The notes under the pieces are model-generated. The model worked only from the letters and a program-made list of their open reading frames with translations, made no database searches and had not been told where the DNA came from. From positions 3,658,001-3,722,000 of the forward strand of contig NC_037310.1 in assembly GCF_000143535.2 (NCBI RefSeq): 64,000 nucleotides of DNA, given 5' to 3'. Source of the stretch: Botrytis cinerea B05.10. Taxonomy: Eukaryota; Ascomycota; Leotiomycetes; Helotiales; Sclerotiniaceae. The stretch's first letter is position 1, and every line of letters starts with the position of its first letter. Below are positions 5,924 to 41,151 of the stretch, one piece after another. The translations under genes and the position numbers were made by a program.

Positions 5924-8900
5924 ATGCCTCCAGGTCGCGGGCTGAAAGAGACCTCGCAAGGCTCAGCACTTGAGAAGAGCGTTGAAAAGTTGTGTCAGGA
6001 ACTCGACAGAACTGTCAATGCAAAGGACAGGGAAGGGTGAGACAGGTTTGCAGTGTCCATACATCTATAGCATGCTAACAACTAACAGAATCGCCGAAGA
6101 CACTCTAATATCAATCGGTGATGCTCTACGCACGGCGAAGGCAACGGAAACAATAACTGAGCCAGCCGTAACAAGTCTTCTTTCAATATTGGAGAATGAT
6201 CGCGGCGAGTTGTGTTGTACTTTTGATATAAAAGTGTTTTCTGCCATTCTTGAATTTGCACTTAGGAGCGAAGAGTGTCGAGGAAGTGAGCGTATTCTCG
6301 TCTTGCTTGCCGTAAGTACTCGCACCACAAAGACTACAATGTTCTGGGCATTGACGGAGTTTTACAGAAGGAACTTCATACGCAATTAGCACCTCAGGAA
6401 ACTGAGAGCTCCCATGGTATTTTGGTCGAGATCGCAAAACAAGTGAACGTTGCTCGCCTTATTGAATACTTTATCGATCATTCGAAGCCAGATGGAATGA
6501 GAAGATGGGTAAGCTGCCATATTTTGAAATATTATGAGAATATACTAACACATAGATAAGGTTGGTATCATCATGCAACAGCTTTTGAGAGGCCCAGAGG
6601 CAGTTTCTGAGCAGTTTCAGCATACACCCGAGGACGTCAGGTGAGAAATCCTCCACAGTAAAACGAACAATTAGCTGATAGATTGCTGGAAAGACGCAGC
6701 ATTGGTCCCATGATTATCAGTGAAGATAATGAAATCCTTAGGTTGATTTGTGGACGGGTTTTTGCGTTACTACTAAACTCTGATATTCTGCCGGAAGAAC
6801 TCTGCCCTGCAAGGACTAACCAAAGGGAATACGAGGATTTTCCAGTTGATTTGCAGAACACAAATGAGTGGAAATCGCTATTCCAGCAGTGGGTAGACCG
6901 GAAATGGCCCGATAATGAAAGCCAAACGTAAGTGCATTCAAGATTGACAATTTTCTGGCAGCTGATGACTCTGCAGACCACCGCATATGCTTTATTATAG
7001 TCTTAGTGTTGTGGCTATACCCCCATTTCGATTGGGAACATTGGGTGAGAGCATAGAACTGGTTTTAGAAGACGGCTATATTCTCCTGCTGAAAAGTTCG
7101 ACGGAACAAGAATTGGATCAGATACTACAAGTGCCATGTAGTTCTATCTCCCGAGTTTCTCTCATTGACAACTCTATCATAATCAACGAGAGAGAAGTTT
7201 ACGACATTGTTTTTGACATCAAGAATGGCCAAGAGCGTTCCTCTTATCTAAATTCCCGACCTATCACTCTTCAGCAACTACGTTTGACCACAGATTCGAA
7301 CAGGAACGAACTGATGATTGATCTTCGCGATGAATGTCTGGAAGCAGAATTCCAACCGGAGAGGGTTCAAGTGTCTCAAGCTGAAGATGATATACTAGTT
7401 CAAGGAAAGGGAAGTTCGCCAGATGCCGAGAGTTACGAGCAACCTTCTGAAGACGAGGGTCAACCAATAAGAAGTGATCCAATAACGTTCGAATCCGAGG
7501 ACGAAGCGCTAGACACCTTGCTCGCCCTCGAACGTCAAATTCAAGCCAAAAATTCTCGACATCAATCATATGATAACATATCTTTGAATGAGACCGATGA
7601 ATTGGAACAGCCCCAACAAAAGTTGAGCAAAAATTATGCAGCCAATAAAGTCAATTTACCTGAGCGTGGTGATGTTGCAAGCTTCAGTGATTCACCTACG
7701 ATGCCTGCCCGTCAAAAGCATATCCCATCTTTCGACGAGGCTTCAGAATTAAATGACAAAATTCTTGAAATAAGTGGTCGGACACTTCTTTCGAGGCAGG
7801 AAGGCAAATCTTGCTCTCAAGCCTCTCAAAATCTACCTATCACGGAAACTCCATCCCAAAAGATTGCAATCAATGTCGCCCTTACTGTCAAGACTAAAGA
7901 CAAAGCGTCTGTCAGTCTAAGAAACGGAAGAGAGGCACTCATACCAGAAGCACCAACAAACCAAAGTGCTAATCTGAAAGCTAGCAAACTGCCAAAGAAG
8001 TATTCTGTTAAACCCAAGACACCAATCGTGGGCGTGAAAAGCGTTAAAGTGGATAACCCTCTACCAAATGTACCAGAGACGGCAATTGCGTCTTCCGAAA
8101 ATAATAAGAGATCCGATGAAGGATCTTCACAAGTCCAGACAAATATCTATGACTTACCAGGGATCAAGGAAGACGGTGGAAGAGAATTCAAGACGGGAAG
8201 TCAAGGCTACCAGGGGACAAGAAAAAAAGCTGGTAGTTCTAAACAAAAAGGCAAACAGAATACCAAAGGCAAGGGGAAGAACGTGAAGACCTTTCAAAAA
8301 CCCAAGCCTACCCTGACAGCAGTCGAAGAGCCTATATTCATCAAGAGGGGTAGCCAAAGGGCGGCTGCAAGTCAAGCCAAGCTTAGCATGAGCAAAATCA
8401 ATGACGACTTGGAGGACATTGAAGATGATTTCTCTGATGGTCGAGATAGTGGACCAGCGCAGCCCAATGTCTCGCGAAAGCGTAAGACGGCCGAGCAATC
8501 ATCCGAGCTAGTCGAGCCAGTTTTATCGGAGATCAAGCTCGCTTCATTGCCAGAGTCGGCTACAGATGAAAACAAGGAAGCATCGATTCTTCAGCAGCAA
8601 GACGCTCAGGTTTCAAGTCTACTTGATGTCAATCTCCCTCCTGGTGACCCATTCGCGCTTGATGACTTATACACTGCGAGTCCGCCTTCCCGAAAGACGG
8701 CCGCAGTAAATTTCGCCAGCCAATTGGATGATCTCTTAAGTGATGACACTAAGGGCGATAAACAGACAACTCAGATCAAAAGTTCGAACAAGGGTCACTT
8801 CAAGAAAAATCTGTCTCCAATCACACCACCGGAAAAGTCAAGAGATCTCGTGCATAGTACATCAGATAATGAACCGAGCGTCCTCAACAAGGGCTTACCA

Positions 8901-10873
8901 AAAGGCGTGGTCGAGAATGCTGAATATTGTAATAGTCACAAAAACCAAGAAGTAGATCCAGAGGAACTACAGTCAGAGGATAGAAACCCAAGCCAGCCAG
9001 CTCAACGTGTTGAAGAAGTGATACCCGTCATTCCATGTGAGACGGAAGCCAAGAAAAGTCAAATGATCAAAAAGACAGATGATCTTGAAGAAGTGTTAGG
9101 CACTAAGCCTCCCACCAGAGCAGACGAGAAGGAGGTTAAGAAGATGGACGAGCAGGCGCTCATCGCAAATATAATCGATCCAGTACTTTCAGTTCCCAGC
9201 CATCCTTCACACAGATTTTCGATTGACTCCAAGCAGGAAGTGATTCACGAACCAGTTGCTACAAAGGCATCAGCTTCTACTGACCATCAATCAAAAGGCC
9301 TGCTAACCCTACAACTGCCGGATGTAGCTTCGATCGAGGAAAAAAAGCGAAAGGTTGCAACAGAGATTACTATACCACCCAAACGCCGTAGACAAATTGC
9401 GACAAGTAACTCAGGAAGCCCCTCAATCTCACCATCTGGCCCTCGCGCGCAAGGAAATGCGTCTCCCGAAAGCTTAGCTAGCAAGAAGATAATGCTACTT
9501 GACGATCGAAGTATTCGCAAACCAAATTTCATACACTTTAATGCCAAAGGTGCACAAAATCAGGGTTCTTCTGGCACGTCCATACCTGTTCCAAAACGCG
9601 ACTCTGAGCTACACATCAAAACATCAAATAGTGCAAAATTCAAGTCACAGGACATGATAAAAAGTAAAAGAAGACACGATTATGGTCATGGCTCGAATGA
9701 AGAAAGTATATTTGTCTCTCAAAGTCCACCCAGAAAGCGTCAGAGTGTTAGTCCGCCGGATGAAGCTTCACTAAAAGATACGTCCGTCTTAGTAAATGAT
9801 ACAACTAGGCCTATAATTCCCACAGCTCTTAAATCAATCTCACAAGGATCCCGAGTGGATGCGTTCGGTAGTCCACAAGCACAACACAATGTACCTTCTA
9901 TCGGTCATGCTCTCCGAGTCGAGCAAAGAGATTTAGCACTAGAATTCGGCAAGGCAGGGTCACCAACTATGAACTCTCACCAGGATTTAGCTACAATCAA
10001 AGTTCTATCTCCTGAACTTGACGCCAAGGACACTGCAGAGATTTTTGGTCCGCGTGTTAAAGTAGTAAGTATCCCGAAAGTACGTCCTGCTCCGCCAGGA
10101 GAGTCTTCTGTTCGATACGTCCCGCACACAAAAACCCAGAACGGATCTTATAAAGACATTTCAACCATGGAAGATATTCAAGAGGTAAAAGTTCTGCCGG
10201 ATCCGTTTATTGATGCCGCCCATCACAAATCGAGTGGGTTTACAGAACGATTACGGACACGTGAGGCCGATGGAGGCTCGAATGTTCGTTTCAGCAATCC
10301 CGAAAAAACTCTAGTGGATGTTAAAGAGCAAATCTTTAGTAGAGAGTCATCTTCACCGAGTGAATTTTCGAGTAGTTCATCTTTCCGATCAGGCATTTCG
10401 AACACTTTAAGACAAGGATTATCTCCCCATAGTCGATGGTTGGAGGGTGTTAGACCACATTACAAGGGATATGCAGATGCTGTTCATAAAATTGCCGATG
10501 TAAGTCTGACTTATTGTACGATTCAATATTGATGACTGGAATAGCTGACACTGAAATTTAGGAGATGGTGATTAGATTGACTAATGAAGAGGATGCATCA
10601 GAGCTGGTCGTTCGTCAATACAAGGGGAACGCTGCGAGAATGCTCGAGGATTTGAGTAGCAAGCGAGATGTGGAGAAGCTTAGTATACGTCAACAAATCG
10701 AAAACAAGAAGACAGAATTGATTCGAATGTATGCTGAAGCTGGGAAAGTCGTGAAGCAAATCGAAAAGGATATAAAAATTTCTCCCGTGGGTGATGTTGA
10801 TGGAAAGTGGCAGGAGAGACAAGAGTTCATACAAAGAGAATTGAAGGGAGGGAAACGCACATTGGATTCATAA
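5924..10873 (+). CDS. large nuclear protein with Red1/SYCP2-like meiotic axis architecture
   Basis: The seven-exon model is 5924-6036, 6089-6311, 6368-6508, 6561-6640, 6682-6927, 6977-10499 and 10562-10873. All junctions are in phase and give 1545 residues. An in-frame ATG at 5906 could add six residues; I chose 5924 (MPPGRGLKET) because of its cleaner A-rich context. Order of regions: an all-helical N-terminal region (about residues 1-270, split over small exons); a beta-rich segment at about 285-390 (LGTLGESIELVLEDGY, then SISRVSLIDNSIIINER) that reads like a PH/Spt16M-type domain; about 1000 residues of charged, Ser/Pro/Lys-rich, probably disordered sequence with basic patches such as PPKRRRQ; and a C-terminal coiled coil at about 1450-1545 (Leu/Ile heptads and KKTELIRMYAEAGKVVKQIE). 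This order, and the length, match human SYCP2 and the scheme of yeast Red1. That is inference from architecture: I see no decisive motif. If correct, it would build the meiotic axis and bind a HORMA protein. Confidence 0.5.
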
Positions 10874-11632: not shown

Positions 11633-12951
11633 ATGCCACAAGGAAGTGGTTTCCACCCATTCGGTGGCAGATTATCCAAGCACATGGGCAATTCGGTATG
11701 TATCAAGCACATGCGGACTCTGCTTGACAATTGATGACTCCGGTGGAAGGGCAGTCGCAGCAATAAAGCAATGCGCAACTTGGGACTGACAAACACAATC
11801 ATTGTAGCTCTCTCCTGAAGCTGCATATCTGAGTTGTGAGTTTGCCTGTTCATGGTCGCTTTCGCGTCGCTGCGGGGTTGCTCCGGCATATTTGCTAATG
11901 CTCACTTTTTAGATTATGATGTACGATGTAGGTTTGCTCAATAATTCAGAAAAACACACCCACGAACTGGTAGACTAAACTATGATGGTAACAGTGACAA
12001 GAGAAGACGTTAATACGTTGAAGGATGATTGGCTTACGGATAATGTATACTTTGGCATTATTCCCTTCTCTCCAAATCATTACTGACGCACTCTTTGATA
12101 GACAATAGCCTTCTGGCAGGAGTACGTGAATTCTACTACACCTTTCGCAAACAAGTGCCTTTGAAAAAGCCACTGCTAAACATTCCCTTCAAACAGATAT
12201 CTCGAGAACGAATACCTCAAGCGATACCCCTCCTCCCACATCGTCCTACTCCGCCCCTCCATGGCATATATGCTACGAATGCAGGACAACCCCACTCAAC
12301 TCCGTTCCGCTCTCCCAGACTTTCGTCTCACCACCCATATCTTCCTCCCCATAAACGATAATCGTAATGTTTCCCAAGCAGAAGGTGGATCTCACTGGTC
12401 ACTCCTCCTCGTATCCGTTATCGACGGTGTAGCATTCCACTACGATTCTCTATCGCCCTCAAATTATGAAGAAGCGAACACGACAACTTATAAGCTAGGT
12501 CAGTTATTGGGTCGTCAGTTGAGGTTTTTGAATCTGCAGGATACTCCGCAACAGCAGAATGGAAGTGATTGTGGAATTTACGTGTGTATTATCATGCGCC
12601 ATTTGTTGTTGAAGAGATTGCTGTGCGCGAACGCGAGGGAAAAGGTTTCCATGAGTATGGGAGGCAAATTGGTGGATGCGAGTGGAGCGAGAAAAGAGAT
12701 GTTGAAGATTATTGAGGGGTACAGGAAGGAGGGGGAGAGAAGGCGATCGTAAGTTTTCACCATCTTCAAAAGTTCCACTACACAGATTTGGGCGACCGAA
12801 GTGAATTCCTCCTGACAGAATCACAGACAAGACGAAAGTCGCAGCTCGTCCCCTTTCCAGAAGGGCAATCGAAGCCCTCCACGAATCGATTCATGAGCTA
12901 CGCGTATATGAACACGACTACAGGAAATCATCAGGCGTTATGGAATTATGA
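11633..12951 (+). CDS. Ulp1/C48-family cysteine protease, SENP8/Nep1-like (deneddylase)
   Basis: This protease family removes the ubiquitin-like proteins NEDD8 or SUMO from targets. Seven exons: 11633-11695, 11808-11835, 11913-11927, 11995-12044, 12102-12121, 12197-12748 and 12819-12951, in phase, 286 residues. Four exons are only 28, 15, 50 and 20 nt; they restore the conserved run YYDVRLTREDV..LKDDWLTDN..IAFWQEYLE. Visible catalytic residues are His125 in GGSHWSLL, Asp142 in HYDSLS and Cys184 in QNGSDCGIYVC. Short length, the DWLTDN..I..W motif and a lone catalytic domain fit SENP8/DEN1 and fission yeast Nep1 better than the large SUMO proteases. A simple reading stops at 12752, but a GTAAGT donor at 12749 leads to a further 44-residue exon (ITDKTKVAARPL to SSGVMEL). 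I consider that the true C-terminus. NEDD8 specificity is inferred. Confidence 0.85.
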
Positions 12952-16043: not shown

Positions 16044-17611
16044 ATGAATTCCGCAGAGGAAAAGGCGAGTGCTTTACGGCGTCAAATAACTGACACCGAG
16101 ACTGAACTTGCTTCCCTAAAACTACAATTATTGAGTATCGAAGGAAAAGATGTCGACTCAAAAGATCTTGAGGTTACAGAAGAAGGTCTCGTGACTCATG
16201 GCGAAAGCAAATGGCCCATGAGTTTGGAAGAATACAAACGTTATGGAAGACAAATGATCGTGCCCGATATTGGTATTCAGGGTTAGTTGTTAAATATCTG
16301 GAGATGTTTCTTTTCGATTTCGGGATATCCTACTAATCATGATTCAGGACAATTACGACTTAGATCAACCTCTGTTCTCCTAGTTGGAGCTGGAGGTTTG
16401 GGATGTCCGGCCGCTGCATATATCGCCGGTGCAGGAGTTGGTACTATTGGAATTGTCGATGGAGATACTGTAGAAGAGTCGAATTTACATCGTCAAGTAT
16501 TGCATAGTACAGACCGAGTGGGGGTTAATAAAGCTGTCAGTATTGCTAAATATATATCAGGGTATGGATCTTCCTTTAAAATAAGGACGAGTGTATTTAT
16601 TGACAAACTTCCAGCTTGAATCCAAATGTAAAGACAAATACCTTCGAAACACATCTTACGCCTCAAAATGCAGAGGATATAGTCAAAGACTATGATTTAG
16701 TTCTTGACTGTACTGATCATCCCACATCCCGCTATCTCATTTCAGATATATGTGTTCTTCTCCAAAAGCCACTCGTTTCCGCCTCCGCTCTCCGAACAGA
16801 TGGCCAGTTAATAATATTAAACAATCCTGCCTTACCTCCTGGCGATCTATCAGGTGGTCCATGTTACCGCTGTGTCTTCCCCAAACCGCCTCCGCCCGAA
16901 GCCGTGACAAGTTGTGGCGACGGAGGAATTATTGGACCTGTTGTAGGTGTAATGGGTGTTTTACAAGCTTTGGAGGCTATAAAACTCATTGCATCTGGAA
17001 AGTTGGCCACGGTTGGGGAAAAGAATGAGACAAGTTCTACCCCCAAGACGAATCCTACTACGATGTTATTATTCTCTACAAATGGAACGTCGCCATTCAG
17101 AAATGTCCGTTTAAAGGGTAGAAGATCGACTTGTTTCGCTTGTGGAGAGGAACCTCAGTTGTCTCTTGAGCAACTGAAATCTGGCTCTATGGATTATGTC
17201 TTATTTTGTGGCATGACGCATCCCGTCAAGTTATTGAGTGATGAAGAGAGGGTTGAGGCAAAAGATTACGAAGAGTCGATAAGAAAGGAAGAACAAGATC
17301 ATTTGTTGATTGACGTTCGAGAGAAGGTGCAGTTTGATATCTGTAATATTGAGGGATCACACAATATACCTTTCTCATCATTCCAAGGCAACAGAATCAA
17401 CGAAGATCGCTCACTATTAACGCTCACCGATGGCCTGAGCCCGAAAGCTCCTATATATGTCGTTTGTAGGCTCGGTAACGATTCCCAAGTAGTCACAAAA
17501 AAGATGAAGGAAATGGGATTGGATCTCAGAGGCGACAGATATATTGGTGATATCAAGGGAGGTTTACGATCTTGGAAAGAACAGGTAGATAGTTCTTGGC
17601 CCGAATACTAG
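16044..17611 (+). CDS. UBA4: UBA4, E1-like adenylyltransferase and sulfurtransferase (MOCS3)
   Basis: UBA4 activates the ubiquitin-like protein URM1 by adenylation and thiocarboxylation, for tRNA 2-thiolation and urmylation, and in many fungi also serves molybdopterin synthase. Exons 16044-16281, 16348-16561 and 16615-17611 are in phase, 482 residues. Order: an N-terminal coiled coil ([18 protein letters not shown]); a ThiF/E1 fold from about residue 70 with [20 protein letters not shown] (ATP loop) and [12 protein letters not shown]; zinc cysteine pairs in CYRCVFP and CFACGEE; the likely catalytic Cys251 in [17 protein letters not shown]; and a C-terminal rhodanese domain (about 365-482) with [13 protein letters not shown] and active-site Cys435 in [10 protein letters not shown]. 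All key residues are intact. It converges with PAM17, the stops lying about 230 bp apart. Confidence 0.95.
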
Positions 17612-25614: not shown

Positions 25615-26148
25615 GTGGTTATTATTAATCTTGTTATTATAAAGTCTATCAAGTAATCAAAAAACTATTAAGTATTAAATATTCAAGTAAAAAAATAATA
25701 ATCTCTAATTGGATATTAAGTAATTGTAAAAAAAAATAGTGTAGATAATAGAAATCATTCATTAAAGACTAGTATTTTATTTAGTTGACTAATAATATTT
25801 ATTCTCATTTAAATCAATTATGAATTCTTCTCTTATTATATATAAGTTTGTAAAACTTTTCTTAGTATGAATATAAATTTTTCTTAATTTATTCTTCATT
25901 AAAATTTAAAAGGGCTACTTAAAAAGTGTTCTCTTGGGTTTTATTTTTGTCTCTAAATGAAAGTTGAAGATGAATCTAAATTAAGTAGAAAGATTGGCGT
26001 TTTTATTAATCTTAGATTGAGTTAATCTGATCTCTAAAACAATCTCAACTTTAATTTTGCTCAACTCAATTTCGATTTATCTGACGGAATCAATTTTCTT
26101 ACGGAGAGAGAGGAGTCTCCTTCAAGAATAACTCCTTCAATCTATTCA
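25615..26148. other. AT-rich island between retrotransposon and chromodomain gene
   Basis: By eye the first 350 bp contain very few G or C, with runs such as AAAAAAATAATAA. It holds no ORF. Composition rises to normal near 26100, where a CT-rich leader of the next gene begins. This could be mutational spill-over from the element, or an AT-rich promoter. Confidence 0.6.
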
Positions 26149-28065
26149 TTGGACTTCCCAATGTCTTCCGAAAATAATCCAGACTTCACCGGGGAAGATA
26201 CATGTTTACCAAGATCAAAATTGGCCTTCGATTTCAGAGTGGTCGAAAGACCGATTTATAAACCAAATAGCGGTCCACCTCTTCAACCAATCTCACTCAT
26301 TCCTCCTCACGAGTTAAAAGGAATTATTCTCGATTGTTTTCCATACCCAAAGCCAAACAACCCTAGCCACTTCCTAGTGGGCTACGAACAAGAGCCACAT
26401 AATCGCATTATTATACATCCAAACAATATTCGCAATTATGTATCAGAATACACTTTGGAAAACTGGGAGCATGACCGAAGTTCCGCAGAAGAGAGTCGTC
26501 TCATTGAAGAACTTCAACCTCGGTTGATAGCGTCAGAAAAGGCAAGAGTATTGCGAGAATTGAAAAAAGCTGGAAAATCACGTGATGATCTCAGGGAGGA
26601 GGATGCCGAACAGTATCAGGCTTTGGGAATGCCGAAGAAGAGGGGCAGGCCTAAGTCTATGGCGAGTGTTTTCAAACCAGCGCCTAAGCCAGTATCCGAT
26701 CAACCAAGTGGGAAGCGTGGACCTGGACGACCTCGGAAAGTGGTGCCAGTTCAAGTGGTTTCGCCTACTACCTCACATCATCACCGGCCTTCTTTGTCTC
26801 AGCCATCCTTATCCCAGCCATCTCTATCTCAGCCATCTCTATCTCAATCATTTGCTAATGCACCAAGAGCAATGTTGGAACATACAATTGCCGACTCAAC
26901 GAGCGAAGAGGAAGATGAAGATACCAACTTAGCGCTTGACGATCAACTCAACCAAGAGGCAACCCACATGTCTAACACCGCTATGAATTTGTCTGCTATA
27001 CTGAGAGTTACGAGTCCGGAAATGCAGCGATCTAGTCAAGGTCGGGTAAACAAGACTCCTGTTCATTCACCTCAGAAGTACAAGATGTCACCCCACGATC
27101 GTCCCAAGAAAGCTGCAATTCTCCCTGGCATGAGTGTTAACGCATATCCATACGAGAATTTAAAAGCCAATGCTAGCATCAATAAAAAGAGCATGAAAGT
27201 CGGCGAAGGCTCAAGCACGCAGAACCAATTTTCAGCAAGCCTTCAGTTACCCATTCTATCAAGTGGCGAACAGCCCACTGGTCGCAAATTTCAAGGCACA
27301 GGTCAGAAGCCTCAATCTAAAATTGTCGATTACTTCAAGGATTTTGGTACTAAAACTCCTACTTCAAAGACTCTTAATGTAAACCGAAATCACGAGCCTT
27401 CGTCTAGTTTGAAGCGCAAATCTTCTCCATCCATAGGACGAGAAGGTGAGTCAAGTGGGAAGTCTCGAAGTAAAACCCGAAGACTTGAAAAGGGCTCCGA
27501 TGATTATTTTGATGCCGAATATAAGAAACCTTGGAAAAAGATATCTGGATCACCCACCGTTGAAAATCATGAAACAAGCTTCGAGCCAAGATCAAGTGCA
27601 CGGCGTGGAAGTGATGCTTTCAATCTCCGTAGTTCTAGAAGCAGAAGTCGAAGGCTTGGATCCTCTCCTAGTAATAGAATGGAGCTCGAGGATGAGGGCG
27701 AGGATGCGATTGAAGATATGGATGAAGATGAAAGCGAACAGGAAGACTCACGAAAACCTTTTGCCGAAGAACCGTCAACATGGGATGTAAAATCAATATT
27801 GGATCATAAGTACGAATGGAATGCCAGTCACAACAGGCAAGAACTATGGTATCTTGTCGATTGGGAGGGAGATTGTGACGCGACATGGAAGCCTGCTAAT
27901 GGTGTCTCGAAAGGGGCCGTCGATGAGTACATCGCTTCGAGACAAGCTCGGGGACTTGGTAATCTCTCTGTTTCGATTGACGCGATAGATATAGGGGGAA
28001 ATGATGATTCGTTATCACGAGGCGATAATCTAGAACGCAGTATTGAGGACAACGCATACTCTTAG
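26149..28065 (+). CDS. chromodomain and AT-hook protein
   Basis: A single-exon gene of 638 codons; an in-frame ATG four codons later (26161) is an alternative start. A conserved-looking N-terminal block (LAFDFRVVERPIYKPNSGPP to IHPNNIRNYVSEYTLENWE) is followed by a helix rich in Arg/Glu, two AT-hooks (KKRGRPKSMA at about residue 163 and KRGPGRPRKV at about 187), a Leu-Ser-Gln-Pro-Ser tandem repeat, a long disordered Ser/Lys-rich region and an acidic stretch (EDEGEDAIEDMDEDESE). The C-terminal chromodomain (about 545-600) reads WDVKSILDHKY..., ELWYLVDWEGDCDATWKP, with aromatic residues where histone methyl-lysine cages sit. AT-hooks plus a chromodomain suggest binding to AT-rich, methyl-H3K9 chromatin, as for Chp1-like silencing factors. 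That role is inferred. Notably it lies next to an inactivated AT-rich transposon. Confidence 0.8.
   Translation: MDFPMSSENNPDFTGEDTCLPRSKLAFDFRVVERPIYKPNSGPPLQPISLIPPHELKGIILDCFPYPKPNNPSHFLVGYEQEPHNRIIIHPNNIRNYVSEYTLENWEHDRSSAEESRLIEELQPRLIASEKARVLRELKKAGKSRDDLREEDAEQYQALGMPKKRGRPKSMASVFKPAPKPVSDQPSGKRGPGRPRKVVPVQVVSPTTSHHHRPSLSQPSLSQPSLSQPSLSQSFANAPRAMLEHTIADSTSEEEDEDTNLALDDQLNQEATHMSNTAMNLSAILRVTSPEMQRSSQGRVNKTPVHSPQKYKMSPHDRPKKAAILPGMSVNAYPYENLKANASINKKSMKVGEGSSTQNQFSASLQLPILSSGEQPTGRKFQGTGQKPQSKIVDYFKDFGTKTPTSKTLNVNRNHEPSSSLKRKSSPSIGREGESSGKSRSKTRRLEKGSDDYFDAEYKKPWKKISGSPTVENHETSFEPRSSARRGSDAFNLRSSRSRSRRLGSSPSNRMELEDEGEDAIEDMDEDESEQEDSRKPFAEEPSTWDVKSILDHKYEWNASHNRQELWYLVDWEGDCDATWKPANGVSKGAVDEYIASRQARGLGNLSVSIDAIDIGGNDDSLSRGDNLERSIEDNAYS
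26794..26853 (+). repeat. coding minisatellite, four 15-bp units
   Basis: Four tandem 15-bp units encode Leu-Ser-Gln-Pro-Ser three times and then Leu-Ser-Gln-Ser-Phe, beginning at residue 216 of the chromodomain protein. Units differ only by few transitions, so the array is probably prone to length change. Confidence 0.85.
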
Positions 28066-32884: not shown

Positions 32885-35800
32885 CTACATTAAACTCGAC
32901 CTCCCACCAACCTCCGTTCCTCCTTGTCCATTTGGCATATCCCCACTTCTTCCCACAACAAACTCCCTATATATTCCCTGTAACCTCCTTCGCTCGTCAG
33001 CACTGATACTTGGTCTTGTACCCTCCAAACTCTTTACTAGATGTTTCCAGAGAATAGTGACTTCTTGTTGACTCTTAACTTCCTTCTGCTCTCCTCTGTC
33101 TTCACTCGAAACATCAATACCCTTTGCTCTCAATTTCTCCTTCTTCTTCGCCTTTTTGATCTCTTCCAACTTGGCGGTAATTGCAGCCTTTTCAGCAAGT
33201 TGTTTGGAGCGATTGTTACCAGCTTTTGCGCGCGTCTCGGCTTCCGTCCGATCTTCATCTTCACCATAGCGGAACTGGACAAAACTTTGAGGTCCGCCGG
33301 ATGCCCCATTTGTCTTAGCGCCGTTACGTTTTCCTCCAACTTCAACTTGTTCATGATCACCAAGTACATCGTGAATGGCTTCAAGCTGCGCATTGGATAT
33401 CAAGGCCTGGAGATCTGCACCAGAATAGCCTTCAGTTCTACGAGCAATCTCAAACAGCCCACCTTCAGGACTATCTCGTACTTCTTCGGATAATTTCAGC
33501 TTTTTGCCCAATGCCTTGAGAATATCAAAACGATCATCCACATTTGGAAGATCACATATAAGAGACTTATCCAAGCGACCCGGACGGAGCAATGCCGGAT
33601 CGATCAAATCTGGTCTCGAAGTAGCTGCAAGTACATAAACTCCAGATAAACCTTCAGCACCATCCATTTGTGTCAACAATTGATTGACTACTCGATCAGT
33701 TACACCAGTAGAATCATGACCACGCTTAGGAGCTATAGAATCGAACTCGTCGAAGAATAGCACACAAGGTCTAGCAGCTTCGGCTCGCTCGAAAAGATCG
33801 CGAACAGACTTTTCAGAAGCACCGATATATTTGTTGAGAATTTCGGGCCCTTTGACACTGATGAAATTCAAACCACATTCTCCTGCAACGGCACTTGCAA
33901 GGAGCGTTTTACCACAACCTGGGAATCCATACAAAAGTAGACCCGATCGCAATCGTAGTGGACATTGTGCGAAAATTGGCGCATAAGTTGTAGGATATTG
34001 TAAGGTCTCAAGTAGAATTTTTCGTGTCTCCTGCAATCCTCCAATCGAATCAAAAGTTGTAGTGGAAGTCTGAAGGGTAACATTTCGAAGCGAGGCTGGC
34101 GTAAACCCTTTCAAAGCACTGTCAAAATCTTCTCTGGTGAGTCGAATAGAACCACTATCCGCGTTTTGCAGGGAGCTTGAAACTGTCCGAATCATTGCTT
34201 CGCTCCTAGCTCGTGCTACGAGAAGAACGAGGTCACCAGGCATGTAACCATCAGTTTGGCCAGCTAGGTCTAAGAAATCAAGATCTTGATCAATGACATA
34301 ACCATCACCTTCCAATTTCTTGGTGCCTTCAAGACTCGAACCACCCATCCAATCATTATCATTTTGTCTCTCGCTATTATCTGCTGTGCTTGGGCGGCTA
34401 CCCGATGCCACTGGTTTTGTCGCAATCTCCGAAATTGCATTTTGCATCGCAACCTTTTCCATAACTCTTCTTCGCCCTTCTTTGTTTGGAGCTTTCAAGG
34501 CGACAATCTCTCGCACGCAATGACAGCCGATGATATTTTTATGGAGTGACTCTTTCGCTTGAGCGGTGGCAAGTAGAACAACGTTACTGCGATGCCCAAT
34601 TAAATATTCTCTAGCGATTGCAATTATCTTCTCGCTAATTAAATCACTTCGAAGGTTGTCATTGCCTACTTCAAGCTCTGTTTCTGCGGGACACAATTTG
34701 TCAAGATCATCCAATATCACAATGGACTTTCCACCGATTCTTGCACCCCATGAGGCAGCCAAAAAAATCCGATCAAATGTTTCACGTATAGTTGAGACAC
34801 GTGCCTCATCGGTAACAAATTTTCGACATGAAAGATATGTGGTATGGTACCTGCTATCTTGCCGTAACCGATGTGCCAAGTGTTGAACCACTGCTGTCTT
34901 TCCAGACCCCAAAGCACCAGTTAGCAATACTGAAGACAGGTGCGAAAGATGTGAGTATAGTTGTTCCATGAGATTATCAATGCCCACAAGAACAGGAGGT
35001 TGTGAGCCAAGACCATCGATCGCATTTGCTGCCAGGGTTAAGGGTTTTGGAATAGCGGCTTGAACCTCAAGATTGAATTTCTTTTCAGAACCAAGAAACC
35101 AATTACAAGGCTGCTTTCCGGACTCTTGTGGTCCTTGCTCTAGACGAATCATTCCGCCTTCCCAGCTTGATGGGAAGTCAGAACCTGATGGTTTGCCGAG
35201 TACTAAGCCATCAGTCAATGGCCCTTCCAAAATGCCACTATTAGAACCATTCTTGCTATACATTTTCATGATTGATTTTGCAGCTTCTTCCCTCTCAGCT
35301 TTCGACTCCCCGCCAAATTTGAGACCTTCGTTCGCTTTTCCTGTACTAGATGTATAGGGAAACACCTTGATGTGTGGAGTACCAGATTTAGAAGTGGGTT
35401 GAAAAGTCGGCTTCGAAGTCTGGGACGGGGCAGGCGCAACCCTTATAACACCTCCAACCATATTTTTACACCCCATAGAGGCACAAAGTGAACTCGATAG
35501 GGCCACATGGTATTGGTCTGGCGGTTCATCCCATGTCATCAGCCTAGCTACTACCTTTGATGCAGGCTTCCCGGCAACACCGGTATTTTCATCTTCTTGT
35601 TGTTGTCGTTGTGGGTCGATTGGCTCTTGCAAAGTAGCGGGCTTGACAACGGTGACGGTGACCCAAGTGAGCCCTTTCAAAGAGTCCCCGAGAATGAAGT
35701 CCCCATCAACCCAGATTTTCAGTCCTCCATCATCTGCATCTTTCTCTTCTTCAAACCACTCCCCACAAAGTGCCCTGTCAATTCCTCTATAATACATAGC

Positions 35801-36670
35801 CGGCTTCGTCTCTTCACTTCGTCCACTTTTCCTACGTACCGCACTAGAAACACTTCGTCCGCCAACGCTCTTCCTCGAAGATACACTCACATTTTCGCCC
35901 AAACTTCGTGATGGTTTTGACCTTGTTTTCGGGGCCACAATAACTTCTGCATCTGGTGCTAGTTTCGTGAACGCAATATTTGAAGGCGGAGCAGGGAGGA
36001 GGGATGTGACTATAATATTGGCAGTCGAGGTTGGTGAAAGGTGCAACGTCAGAGGATGCGGCAGGTGCGATGAACCACTCGGTGAAGTAAAGCTTGGATT
36101 TGGTAATGCACGTATTTGATTGATGAAATTGAGCTCGAGGAAATTAGCATGCAATTCTATAATCTCCCAATCTTCTGGCGTCAAAGGTTCGATATTAATT
36201 GTATGGGCGACGGGAGGGTCGACGTGTATAGTCGCTGTAATTTTCTGTCCATCTGATATCCCCAATGTTCGCGCAAAGGTTGCATCTATCTCTACAACCT
36301 GTACTTCTTGCTCTCTACCAGATCCCCTAGTGCCACTTATACCATCCCTCCCGACAATTGGTGCAAGCTTGCGCTTGCTCTGCATACCCGTCCATCCCAC
36401 GAAGATAGATCGTTGAGTCGGGGCGCCATTCGTTTGATTTGGGCTCTGCGGAGGTGGAAGTCGGTAGTTCAATTCTACAATCACATTTTGTGCAAGCTAT
36501 GGAATGTGAGTGTCTGCTCATAAGGTAAATTCGTTGCGACTTACGGCGTTGATATTAACTAGTAATGAAGACAATGATGAAGGCAAGTTCACCAAGCAAT
36601 TCTTTAGATGAATTAATGATATCTCTGCAGGTGTAGCTTGACTGCCACGTCCTTTTAAGTTTGAGGCCAT
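32885..36670 (-). CDS. PEX1: PEX1, peroxisomal AAA ATPase
   Basis: PEX1 forms a hexamer with PEX6 that extracts the import receptor from the peroxisomal membrane. Exons 36670-36545 and 36496-32885 give 1245 residues, normal for filamentous fungi. The short first exon (MASNLKGRGS..., LIHLKNCLVNLPSSLSSLLV) is essential for the N-terminal double-psi-barrel region. D1 AAA domain: Walker A GALGSGKTAV (about 568) and Walker B SIVILDDLDKL. D2 domain: Walker A YGFPGCGKTLLAS (about 900), Walker B VLFFDEFDSIAPKRG (about 955), sensor VLAATSRPDLIDP and arginine fingers LLRPGRLDKS. D1 is the degenerate ATPase and D2 the active one, as in the family. The C-terminal extension is basic and helical. It is divergent from MCM7. 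Confidence 0.96.
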
Positions 36671-37323: not shown

Positions 37324-39990
37324 ATGGCGCTGCTTCAATACAAAGCTCCCGTCAACTATGAAGCTCATCAAGGTATGGAGCTTTCAATTATTGAGACTTT
37401 CTATGATACTAATCCAACTACTAGAGGCTTTCGAAGACTTCCTGTCCACGTTCAAAACTTCTCCAACTGCGAACATTACCCATGCTTTGGGCGGCATGAA
37501 CATTGATGAGGATGATTTCAGCGATGACAACGACATGATGGATGATGATGACGACGACCAGACCTCAAGGAGGCAGACCAGAGCTCAAGCAAAGGTTCCC
37601 AAGTTGAAGTATTTGGAGTTATTACAAAAAGTTGCAGACAGATACGAGGATGAAATCACAATTGAACTTGACGATTTAGCCAAAGTACAGCGACCGCCCC
37701 TCCATCTGTTTGATATACTGACAGTTGTAGTATGATGACTTACTGGATGAAGCTGGAACTCCCCTCAATCTAGTCAACTCGATTGAAACAAACGCAAAGC
37801 ATTATCTGGACATTTTATCCAAGGCGGTCGATGCAGTGATGCCACAACCTACAAGAGAAATCAAGTGAGCTGAGCTGTAAACCTGCTGTGGTTTACTTAC
37901 TAATTAAATCGCAGTTATAAGGATGATGTCCTTGATGTTCTCATGTCGCAACGAACAGCTCGAAACAACGCCTTACGCCGTGCTGCCGCCGAACAAAGCG
38001 ACATAACAGTTGAGCCCGAACTATTCCCTGCCGAACTTACAAGAAGATATACTTTGAACTTCAAACCATTAAGCGCTTCCGGAGATAATTCCAAAAAAGC
38101 TTTGGCAGTGCGACAAGTTCGTGGTGAACATCTTGGTCATCTTATTACAGTTAGGGGTATTACTACAAGAGTTTCAGATGTCAAGCCGACTGTGGAAGTA
38201 AACGCATATACTTGCGATAGATGTGGTTGCGAAATTTTCCAACCTGTTGGATCCAAGACATTCGGACCATTAGTCGAATGTCCTTCTCCCGATTGTACTA
38301 CAAATCAAACCAAAGGACAACTCCACCATTCCACTCGAGCATCAAAATTCCAACCATTTCAAGAAATCAAGATTCAGGAAATGGCCGAACAAGTTCCAGT
38401 TGGTCACATTCCTCGAATGTTGACTGTCCTTTGTCACGGGGCTCTAGTTCGACGTATCAATCCTGGAGATGTTGTCGATATTGCAGGAATTTTCTTACCC
38501 ACACCATATACTGGTTTCAAGGCCATTAGAGCTGGCCTTCTCACCGATACATATCTCGAGGCACAGCACGTCACTCAACACAAGAAGGCTTACGAAGATT
38601 TAACCATTGATAGCCGAGTTTTCAAGCGAATTGAGCAATACAGAGCATCTGGTCACGTTTACGAATACCTTGCAAAATCCATCGCGCCTGAAATTTACGG
38701 TCATTTAGATGTGAAGAAAGCATTACTTTTATTGTTGGTCGGTGGTGTCACTAAAAGTATGGGTGATGGAATGAGAATCAGAGGTGATATCAATATCTGT
38801 CTAATGGGTGACCCGGGAGTGGCCAAATCTCAATTACTCAAATATATCACCAAAGTGGCACCAAGAGGAGTTTACACGACCGGTCGAGGAAGTAGTGGTG
38901 TTGGTCTTACTGCAGCGGTTATGAAGGATCCAGTAACTGATGAGATGATTCTGGAAGGTGGTGCACTCGTACTTGCTGATAATGGTATCTGCTGTATCGA
39001 TGAATTTGACAAGATGGACGATACTGATCGAACTGCAATCCACGAAGTTATGGAACAACAAACAATCTCCATTTCCAAGGCCGGAATTTCTACGACTTTG
39101 AACGCTAGAACTTCCATTTTGGCAGCTGCCAATCCTCTTTATGGCCGATATAATCCCAGGATATCTCCAGTGGAGAACATCAATCTTCCAGCAGCTTTAC
39201 TCTCCCGTTTCGATGTACTATTCCTTATCCTTGATACTCCTACTAGAGACAACGATGCTCTCCTCGCTCGCCACGTCACCTACGTTCACATGAATAATAA
39301 ACATCCCGATACTGAAGGTGTTGTTTTCACACCACAAGAAGTTCGTCAATACGTCGCTCAAGCTAGATCCTATCGCCCAACGGTTCCAACAAGCGTCTCT
39401 GAATATATGGTAAAAGCCTATGTCAGAATGCGTGATCAACAATCCCGTGATGAGAAAAACAAGAAACAATTCGCTCATACTTCCCCCCGTACCCTTCTTG
39501 GTGTTCTTCGTCTATCACAAGCTCTTGCCCGATTACGTTTCAGCGAAGAGGTCGTTCAAGATGATGTTGATGAAGCTCTTAGACTTGTCGAAGCATCGAA
39601 AGAGAGTTTGTATGCTGATCAAGATGGATATAGAAAGGATTCTAGTCCAAGTAGTAGAATTTACAATATGGTTAGAGCTTTGGCCGAAGCTGGTCAATGC
39701 AGACCTGAAGAGGCGGATGATGAAGATGATGAGACTTTGGGTATGGAATTGAGTATGAAGAAAGTCAAGGAGAGAGTTATTGCCAAGGGATTTACTGAGG
39801 ATCAATGGCGAGCTGCTGTTATGGAATACACTGATCTTGACGTAAGTTCTCACTTGATTTACCCCTTTAATAGGATTTTTGCTAACAATATCATCAGATC
39901 TGGCAAACTGCTGGTAATGGAACGAGATTATTATTCGTCATGTCAGAGGCGGCACATATGGCAAGGGATGAAGAATATGAAATGGAATAG
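37324..39990 (+). CDS. MCM7: MCM7, replicative helicase subunit
   Basis: MCM7 is one of the six subunits of the MCM2-7 helicase that unwinds DNA at origins. Exons 37324-37372, 37425-37684, 37731-37864, 37915-39841 and 39898-39990, in phase, 820 residues. The N-terminus ([16 protein letters not shown]) and acidic stretch are followed by a zinc motif CDRCGCEIF...C..C (about 247), an OB fold, the MCM box with Walker [10 protein letters not shown] (about 444), Walker [11 protein letters not shown] and the arginine finger LLSRFDVLF (about 578). The last exon supplies [12 protein letters not shown], which a single-exon reading replaces with an unrelated tail. [20 protein letters not shown] is diagnostic for MCM7 among the paralogues. 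Confidence 0.96.
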
Positions 39991-41151
39991 ATATATCCGA
40001 AGATATGAGATAAGATCATATATGTGCATGTAATCCAGGCGTTTGTGGATTAAGGATATCCATGTGGCGTTTTATTGTATCAGTTGTGGTGAGATACCGA
40101 TGGAAGAGAGCATTAGTTGAATACCTATTGTCAATTCAGTTAATTGTATCTTTCCTCTTGACCAGTTCCTTGTCTGATTTGACCCTGCAGTCCTATTTGG
40201 ATACAACCACGATGAAGCTAAATTCATAGAATAAGCATAACGGTTCTTCATTCACTTGTAGCACTTTTACATTCAACTGTTTTGAATCACCGTTGGCTAC
40301 TAATAATGTAATTTCTAATCATAGAATTTTGTGAATTGTTATTTCCTCGCCAACCCTTTATGGGTAGGGTGGACAAGGTGAGACTAAGGTTTTCGTTTCG
40401 TCGAATCGTATTGACTTGGTTTGGTGCCACCGAAAGATGTTGAGCTGGATGGTGACTTCCTATACGGATTGCATTGCTAAGCTCTTGCAACAGATGGATT
40501 CAATGATGGCTTTAGGGATAATTATAGCACATGTATATTGTAAACGAGGAAAATGGAGGCGGTGGTGGTGATGGTGGTTGTAGTGGAGACGGGCTGTTTC
40601 AATCGTGGTGAAGAAGGGTATTGTTTCTAATGTTTCATTTAATTACTTCAAGGCCGGATGAGTAAAAAGGTACGATCTTGCTACAACAATTCGAATATTC
40701 ACAACCTCCAAAGGCACGAACGGCCATGCTACAACAATAATGAAAAAAGGCACACTAAGATAGATTATATCAATCCTACAATTACTCATGAATCCAACAG
40801 CAGCACAGCTACACAGCTACACAGACTGACTTTGAAATAATGTTGACAGAGACACAATTCCTTCTAATTCCCACGGTGCAACCTAACCTCACCGACGCGG
40901 GGAGCGGGTGAGTAGAAGAAACCAGCTACAAACCCCCAACTATAATGATTTAAAGGTTATCAAGTATGCAAAGAATATCGATCACCCCCACGATTGCTTG
41001 CCCACCACTACCATCACCAACATCAACATTTTGGGTGGTTTCACTTTACAAAACAAAAATAAAACGAATCAGCAACAGCATATAGAGACTGAGAAAAGAG
41101 CTTTTTATTCTGAGCCGAAGCTCCAAAAACTATGTAATTCCTTTGGGCGGC
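39991..41151. other. intergenic between convergent genes
   Basis: 3' UTR of MCM7 and downstream region of the zinc-knuckle gene. Contains GGT-rich sequence near 40558-40590 and a short CTACACAG tandem at about 40808-40826. One copy of the CCGCCCAA octamer lies directly after the stop codon of the next gene. Short ORFs carry no motif. Confidence 0.55.

Follow-up and report, generated by a model that had tools for sequence, protein, structure and literature searches.

The window analysed here, a 64,000-nucleotide stretch of Botrytis cinerea DNA (C1:3658001-3722000 in an assembly of 42.6 Mb and 18 contigs), carries a plus-strand gene with a main exon of 3.5 kb, whose features are collected in Table 1. 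The earlier note had joined the frames of this gene into a product of 1545 residues. The spliced plus-strand frame does give 1545 residues when intron 4 ends at 6681, but this end adds four residues (LLER) that are absent in all of the 16 (out of 21) database proteins covering the junction, these being gene models rather than cDNA. The most likely end of intron 4 is therefore 6693, which gives a product of 1541 residues, as in the predicted splicing of Table 1. In three of the 21 proteins (P0017, P0018 and P0021) the block IAD runs into VS and the protein ends soon after, as expected if their gene models read on into an intron located where intron 6 lies here. Their C-termini look truncated by annotation, and the position of intron 6 (10500-10561) looks conserved as far as Cadophora. 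Elsewhere in the window, an Ulp1/C48 peptidase match (12180-12749, plus strand, E = 7e-14) lies downstream of this gene, and there are genes for a ThiF plus rhodanese protein (Uba4/MOCS3-like; 16604-17611, plus), PEX1 (32885-36496, minus) and MCM7 (37904-40033, plus). A 675-residue frame at 26038-28065 (plus), with no Pfam match at E 0.01, contains GRP motifs resembling AT-hooks, and its C-terminal stretch looks, by eye, like a chromodomain.

Table 1. Features of the axis-protein candidate gene and its predicted product (window coordinates)
Feature	Residues	Position	Strand	Remarks
Whole gene		5924-10873	+	7 exons, spliced open frame, 1541-residue product
Coding exons		5924-6036, 6089-6311, 6368-6508, 6561-6640, 6694-6927, 6977-10499, 10562-10873	+	
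Armadillo-like helical domain	~15-256	5966-6904	+	13-14 predicted helices, introns inside
PH-like barrel	~269-390	6990-7355	+	strands plus closing helix
Conserved linear segment (RVQVSQAEDDILVQGKGSSP)	393-412	7362-7421	+	conservation profile, alignments; directly after barrel
Middle of disordered-type composition	416-1420	7431-10445	+	conserved islands, NLS-like basic clusters
Most conserved 15-residue window (RPAPPGESSVRYVPH)	1300-1314	10083-10127	+	tied with 1430-1444
C-terminal amphipathic helical stretch	1425-1512	10458-10783	+	candidate oligomerisation (axis filament) segment

The spliced product gives a 99% match to P0001, a hypothetical protein of B. cinerea, which together with 20 relatives makes up a family of 21 database proteins. 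Eighteen of these were collected with the sequence as a query and the same 18 were retrieved again with a 16-protein profile, both queries scoring only the ~8000 database candidates richest in shared words; a composite of conserved blocks added P0019 (Clarireedia), P0020 and P0021 (Cadophora gregata, E = 2e-4). All 17 relatives with an assigned taxon belong to Helotiales, a distribution to be read with the dependence of the search on shared 5-residue words, which relatives outside this order may escape. They come from Sclerotiniaceae (Botrytis, Botryotinia, Stromatinia, Sclerotinia, Monilinia and Ciborinia), Rutstroemiaceae (Clarireedia) and Ploettnerulaceae (Cadophora). Identity to P0001 is 77-80% within Botrytis and falls to 22-30% in P0019-P0021. 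For none of the 21 proteins is a Pfam domain precomputed, and their names are uninformative; the plasmid collection gave no match. Within the assembly, the conserved N-terminal part produced three matches, all at the window gene, which is thus the sole locus found; a match of the C-terminal part at C9:678917 was dismissed as chance (E = 0.99).

Sequence searches against known families gave no match that could be accepted. Pfam searches with a 1537-residue variant, the N-terminal part and pieces of the relatives yielded nothing over the cut-off (best E 0.04-0.16). Against the PDB, the single N-terminal sequence found no match, the N-terminal profile had MafG as its best hit (E = 0.32), and the C-terminal profile returned 36 rows, the best being Sen54, stathmin-4 and APC at E = 0.19-0.2. 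Tromer 2021 takes significant profile similarity over the end of ARM plus PH as the criterion for the family; here, comparison with two SYCP2 sequences by hhalign, using shallow alignments, gave a probability of 0.1 and no detectable similarity. The Pfam models Red1, SYCP2_SLD and SYCP2_ARLD had no match in the B. cinerea genome, and the controls gave none either, so that this result carries little weight. Known members of the SYCP2/Red1 family are described as highly diverged (Tromer 2021; PMC8131943), and with alignments as shallow as those used here the lack of a sequence match weighs little against membership.

Two AlphaFold2 models are available for the N-terminal part: model 1, of P0001 with 11 sequences (mean pLDDT 57.1), and model 2, of P0010 with 14 sequences (mean pLDDT 56.6). 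Both agree with the helical N-terminal domain read by the earlier note, predicting 14 (model 1) or 13 (model 2) helices between residues 15 and 256, and the order of elements is the same. Directly after the helical domain both predict a PH-like (Spt16M-like) domain, in agreement with the beta domain proposed at about 285-390: strands extend up to residue 368/369, a closing helix spans 373-383, and the topology is that of a PH domain. In blocks of ten residues, pLDDT is 63-90 for residues ~11-120, then 32-72 in the helical domain, and 24-82 in the barrel; confidence is low beyond approximately residue 170, model 2 having pLDDT below 50 over 174-288.

Structure searches with these models returned no Foldseek match at E ≤ 0.001 (0 of 709 matches for model 1 and 0 of 944 for model 2). 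In both cases the first match was the DH-PH unit of Ephexin4 (E = 5.7e-3 and 9.2e-3), as if the protein were Rho-GEF-like, its PH domain being preceded by a helical DH domain. However, the Ephexin4 alignments have an rmsd of 17-22 and TM of 0.18-0.20, the VIA alignments of ECT2, another DH-PH protein, are confined to the PH part (267-396 and 268-394), and a filtered Pfam search up to E 10 contained no RhoGEF family, so that this identity is highly improbable. The helical part has weak Foldseek matches to CNOT9/Rcd-1, mDia1, MO25 and importin-alpha, ARM/HEAT proteins including CNOT9/Rcd-1 reaching an E-value of 0.046 or worse with models that are of low confidence beyond residue ~170; ZYG11B was aligned by VIA to residues 78-173 (model 2, among the matches listed). 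FACT is a structural neighbour of the barrel. FACT for the barrel and CNOT9/Rcd-1, weak here, for the helical part are also the neighbours published for SYCP2 (PMC5498334). Moreover, the crystal structure of SYCP2 itself, 5iwz, is the only chain aligned across both domains among the best 50 VIA matches of model 2, with an rmsd of 8.1 on a model of pLDDT 57; it is not among the best 50 VIA matches of model 1 or the best 50 Foldseek matches of either model. The structural comparison of residues 1-400 with SYCP2 proposed by the earlier note is thus moderately in favour, through 5iwz, FACT and, weakly, CNOT9/Rcd-1, and we regard the predicted fold resemblance as moderate.

One way to account for this resemblance is convergence, the protein being a nuclear scaffold with ARM-like and PH-like domains that is unrelated to meiosis. 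In favour of this are the frequency of both folds, the weakness of the models and the lack of any link to SYCP2 by sequence methods; yet the domain order, the FACT-like barrel, the length and the C-terminal helix all fit SYCP2, and no other chain, among the matches listed, was aligned over the whole stretch, which makes convergence unlikely. We consider it probable that the window gene codes for the axis core protein, of SYCP2/Red1 type, in Botrytis and related fungi. It is the modelled fold and the domain plan, rather than sequence or experiment, that point to this identity. The family call of the earlier note is partly supported, by the domain plan and a moderate fold resemblance to 5iwz, but sequence similarity to the family went undetected.

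The rest of the protein was considered by conservation and composition. Scored in bins of 25 residues over 8 of the 16 aligned proteins, conservation is high at 150-225, across the barrel, just after it and in several islands of the middle, with a peak at 1426-1450. Two of the middle islands, residues 1111-1127 (RKPxxIxFxxxGxxNQG) and 1300-1314, are kept even in Cadophora. In Red1 and SYCP2, the N-terminal domain is followed by a closure motif to which the HORMA domain of Hop1/HORMAD2 binds (West 2019; PMC6349405), and in mouse the removal of residues 395-419 disrupts SYCP2-HORMAD2 complexes (PMC13396342). Residues 393-412 of the Botrytis protein occupy the corresponding place and are conserved in Sclerotiniaceae, but have diverged in P0019 and P0020, and nine other 15-residue windows, five of them in the middle, equal or outrank them. 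The position is therefore the main support for this segment, whose role as a candidate HORMA-binding closure motif is suggested by where it lies.

The middle (416-1420), described earlier as basic and disordered, has a composition that fits disorder, with 41% S/P/T/Q/N/G and 22% large hydrophobics in P0001, but it is neutral overall (140 K+R versus 139 D+E, pI 7.7), basic residues being gathered in local clusters. A motif scan of P0001 found no [FY]xF pattern, the cohesin-binding motif of SYCP2. At the C-terminus, a coiled coil of about 95 residues had been expected. There is indeed a proline-free stretch of 88 residues (1425-1512), interrupted in the DNA by intron 6. Averaged over 16 of the 21 family proteins, the hydrophobic pattern of this stretch peaks at a period of 3.62 residues, with 6 of 3000 permutations as strong, and has almost no power at 3.5. 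Windows of 28 residues inside it score well for the heptad, but over all 88 residues, for each of eight sequences tested, 1795-1995 of 2000 shuffles did at least as well as the best heptad register. The period of 3.62 and the lack of a single heptad register suggest that the stretch forms a long amphipathic helix, perhaps hendecad-like, rather than a continuous heptad coiled coil.

Presumed partners of an axis core protein were searched for in the same genome. Two HORMA matches exceeded the cut-off, L001, which by eye reads as Mad2, and L002 (G000:C8:2453413-2456841, minus strand), which is read as Hop1. A downstream frame of L002 has a PHD-like match (E = 0.004, below the cut-off), and by eye the C-terminal tail of L002 is unlike the post-barrel segment 393-412 of the window gene. 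Two kleisin (Rad21/Rec8) C-termini were also found over the cut-off, with three bacterial controls matching below it. Cor1 (SYCP3) had no match in the genome, and one control matched below the cut-off.

Among known axis core proteins, the closest in plan is SYCP2, with an ARM-like and then an Spt16M-like domain, a long middle and a helical C-terminus, as predicted for the Botrytis protein. Mouse SYCP2 has 1500 residues (PMC6349405, PMC5498334) against 1541 here, which upholds the similarity in length noticed earlier; the C-terminal stretch is of ~175 residues there (West 2019; PMC6349405) versus ~90 here. Further differences are the undetected sequence similarity and the missing Cor1 and [FY]xF matches described above. 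Red1 of budding yeast and Rec10 of fission yeast have a disordered linker and a C-terminal helical segment like those predicted here, and in Red1 an ordered N-terminal domain is directly followed by a Hop1-binding motif (PMC6349405), for which the Botrytis protein has only a candidate; Red1 is also shorter, at 827 residues (PMC6349405), and its Pfam model has no match here. The combination of ARM, PH and coil defines SYCP2-type genes (Tromer 2021; PMC8131943) and is kept in the related ecRED1 of Ectocarpus and KKT17/KKT18 (PMC12678776, PMC8131943), whereas ASY3 of seed plants, also of this family, has lost ARM and PH (PMC8131943).

The view of the earlier note that homologs in filamentous ascomycetes are easily missed is partly out of date, divergent members having been reported in N. 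crassa and F. oxysporum (Tromer 2021; PMC8131943). In addition, a paper of December 2025 identifies Red1 of Sordaria macrospora (SMAC4_01425) and reports on its deletion and tagging (PLoS Genet; PMC12758814). According to the text of that paper, the deletion strain grows normally, 41% of its asci are aborted or vacuolated, and Hop1 and Pds5 are not loaded on the axes. Like the Botrytis protein, Sordaria Red1 comes from a filamentous ascomycete and has a C-terminal helical part, and it acts as an axis scaffold, the role proposed here. Compared by description, it differs in having 839 residues, a Hop1-binding region at 1-30, a Mek1 region at 170-191 and a longer coil at 583-769, and the accessible text of its description makes no mention of ARM or PH domains (PMC12758814).

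These differences would fit a scenario in which the window gene is an SYCP2-type paralog that serves a different function, perhaps at centromeres or as an axis partner, and a second Botrytis gene is the ortholog of Sordaria Red1; 12 recurrent duplications are reported for the family (Tromer 2021; PMC8131943). We find this fairly unlikely: the family search of the genome returns only the window locus, no match comes from the Pfam models Red1 and SYCP2, a result qualified by their probably missing a divergent Red1, and the extreme N-terminal Hop1-binding region of Sordaria Red1 fits a loss of the upstream ARM-PH module. Indeed, had ARM-PH been lost, as in ASY3, the Hop1-binding region behind it would now be expected at the very start of Red1. 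Tentatively, then, Leotiomycetes may keep the ancestral ARM-PH module, while Red1 of Sordariales may have lost it and may start at the former closure motif, in parallel to ASY3 of seed plants.

If the window gene does encode the axis core protein, its product would be expressed in meiosis (a fruiting-body transcriptome of Botrytis exists; PMC5821092). In meiotic prophase, the N-terminal ARM-like and PH-like module would dock on chromatin or cohesin at the bases of chromatin loops. The HORMA domain of Hop1 would hold the segment directly after the barrel, by which Hop1 would be recruited; a long flexible linker would follow, and the C-terminal helical segment would assemble the protein into tetramers and filaments that make up the axis.

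This kind of protein is already known, and no description of the Botrytis member was found in the article texts searched on Botrytis, SYCP2, Red1 and the axis. Control of meiotic breaks and crossovers takes place on the chromosome axis, which is anchored by axis core proteins; these evolve too fast to be recognised by ordinary sequence searches. With a candidate gene in Botrytis and its relatives, tests of the meiotic axis become feasible in a large group of fungi. What the N-terminal module binds was described as mysterious in 2019 (West 2019; PMC6349405), and a comparison with Sordaria Red1, which is shorter, could reveal the purpose of ARM-PH. A loss of the module in Sordariales, if true, would account for the location of the Hop1-binding region at the N-terminus of Sordaria Red1 and would offer, within filamentous ascomycetes, a natural comparison of axes with and without a docking module.
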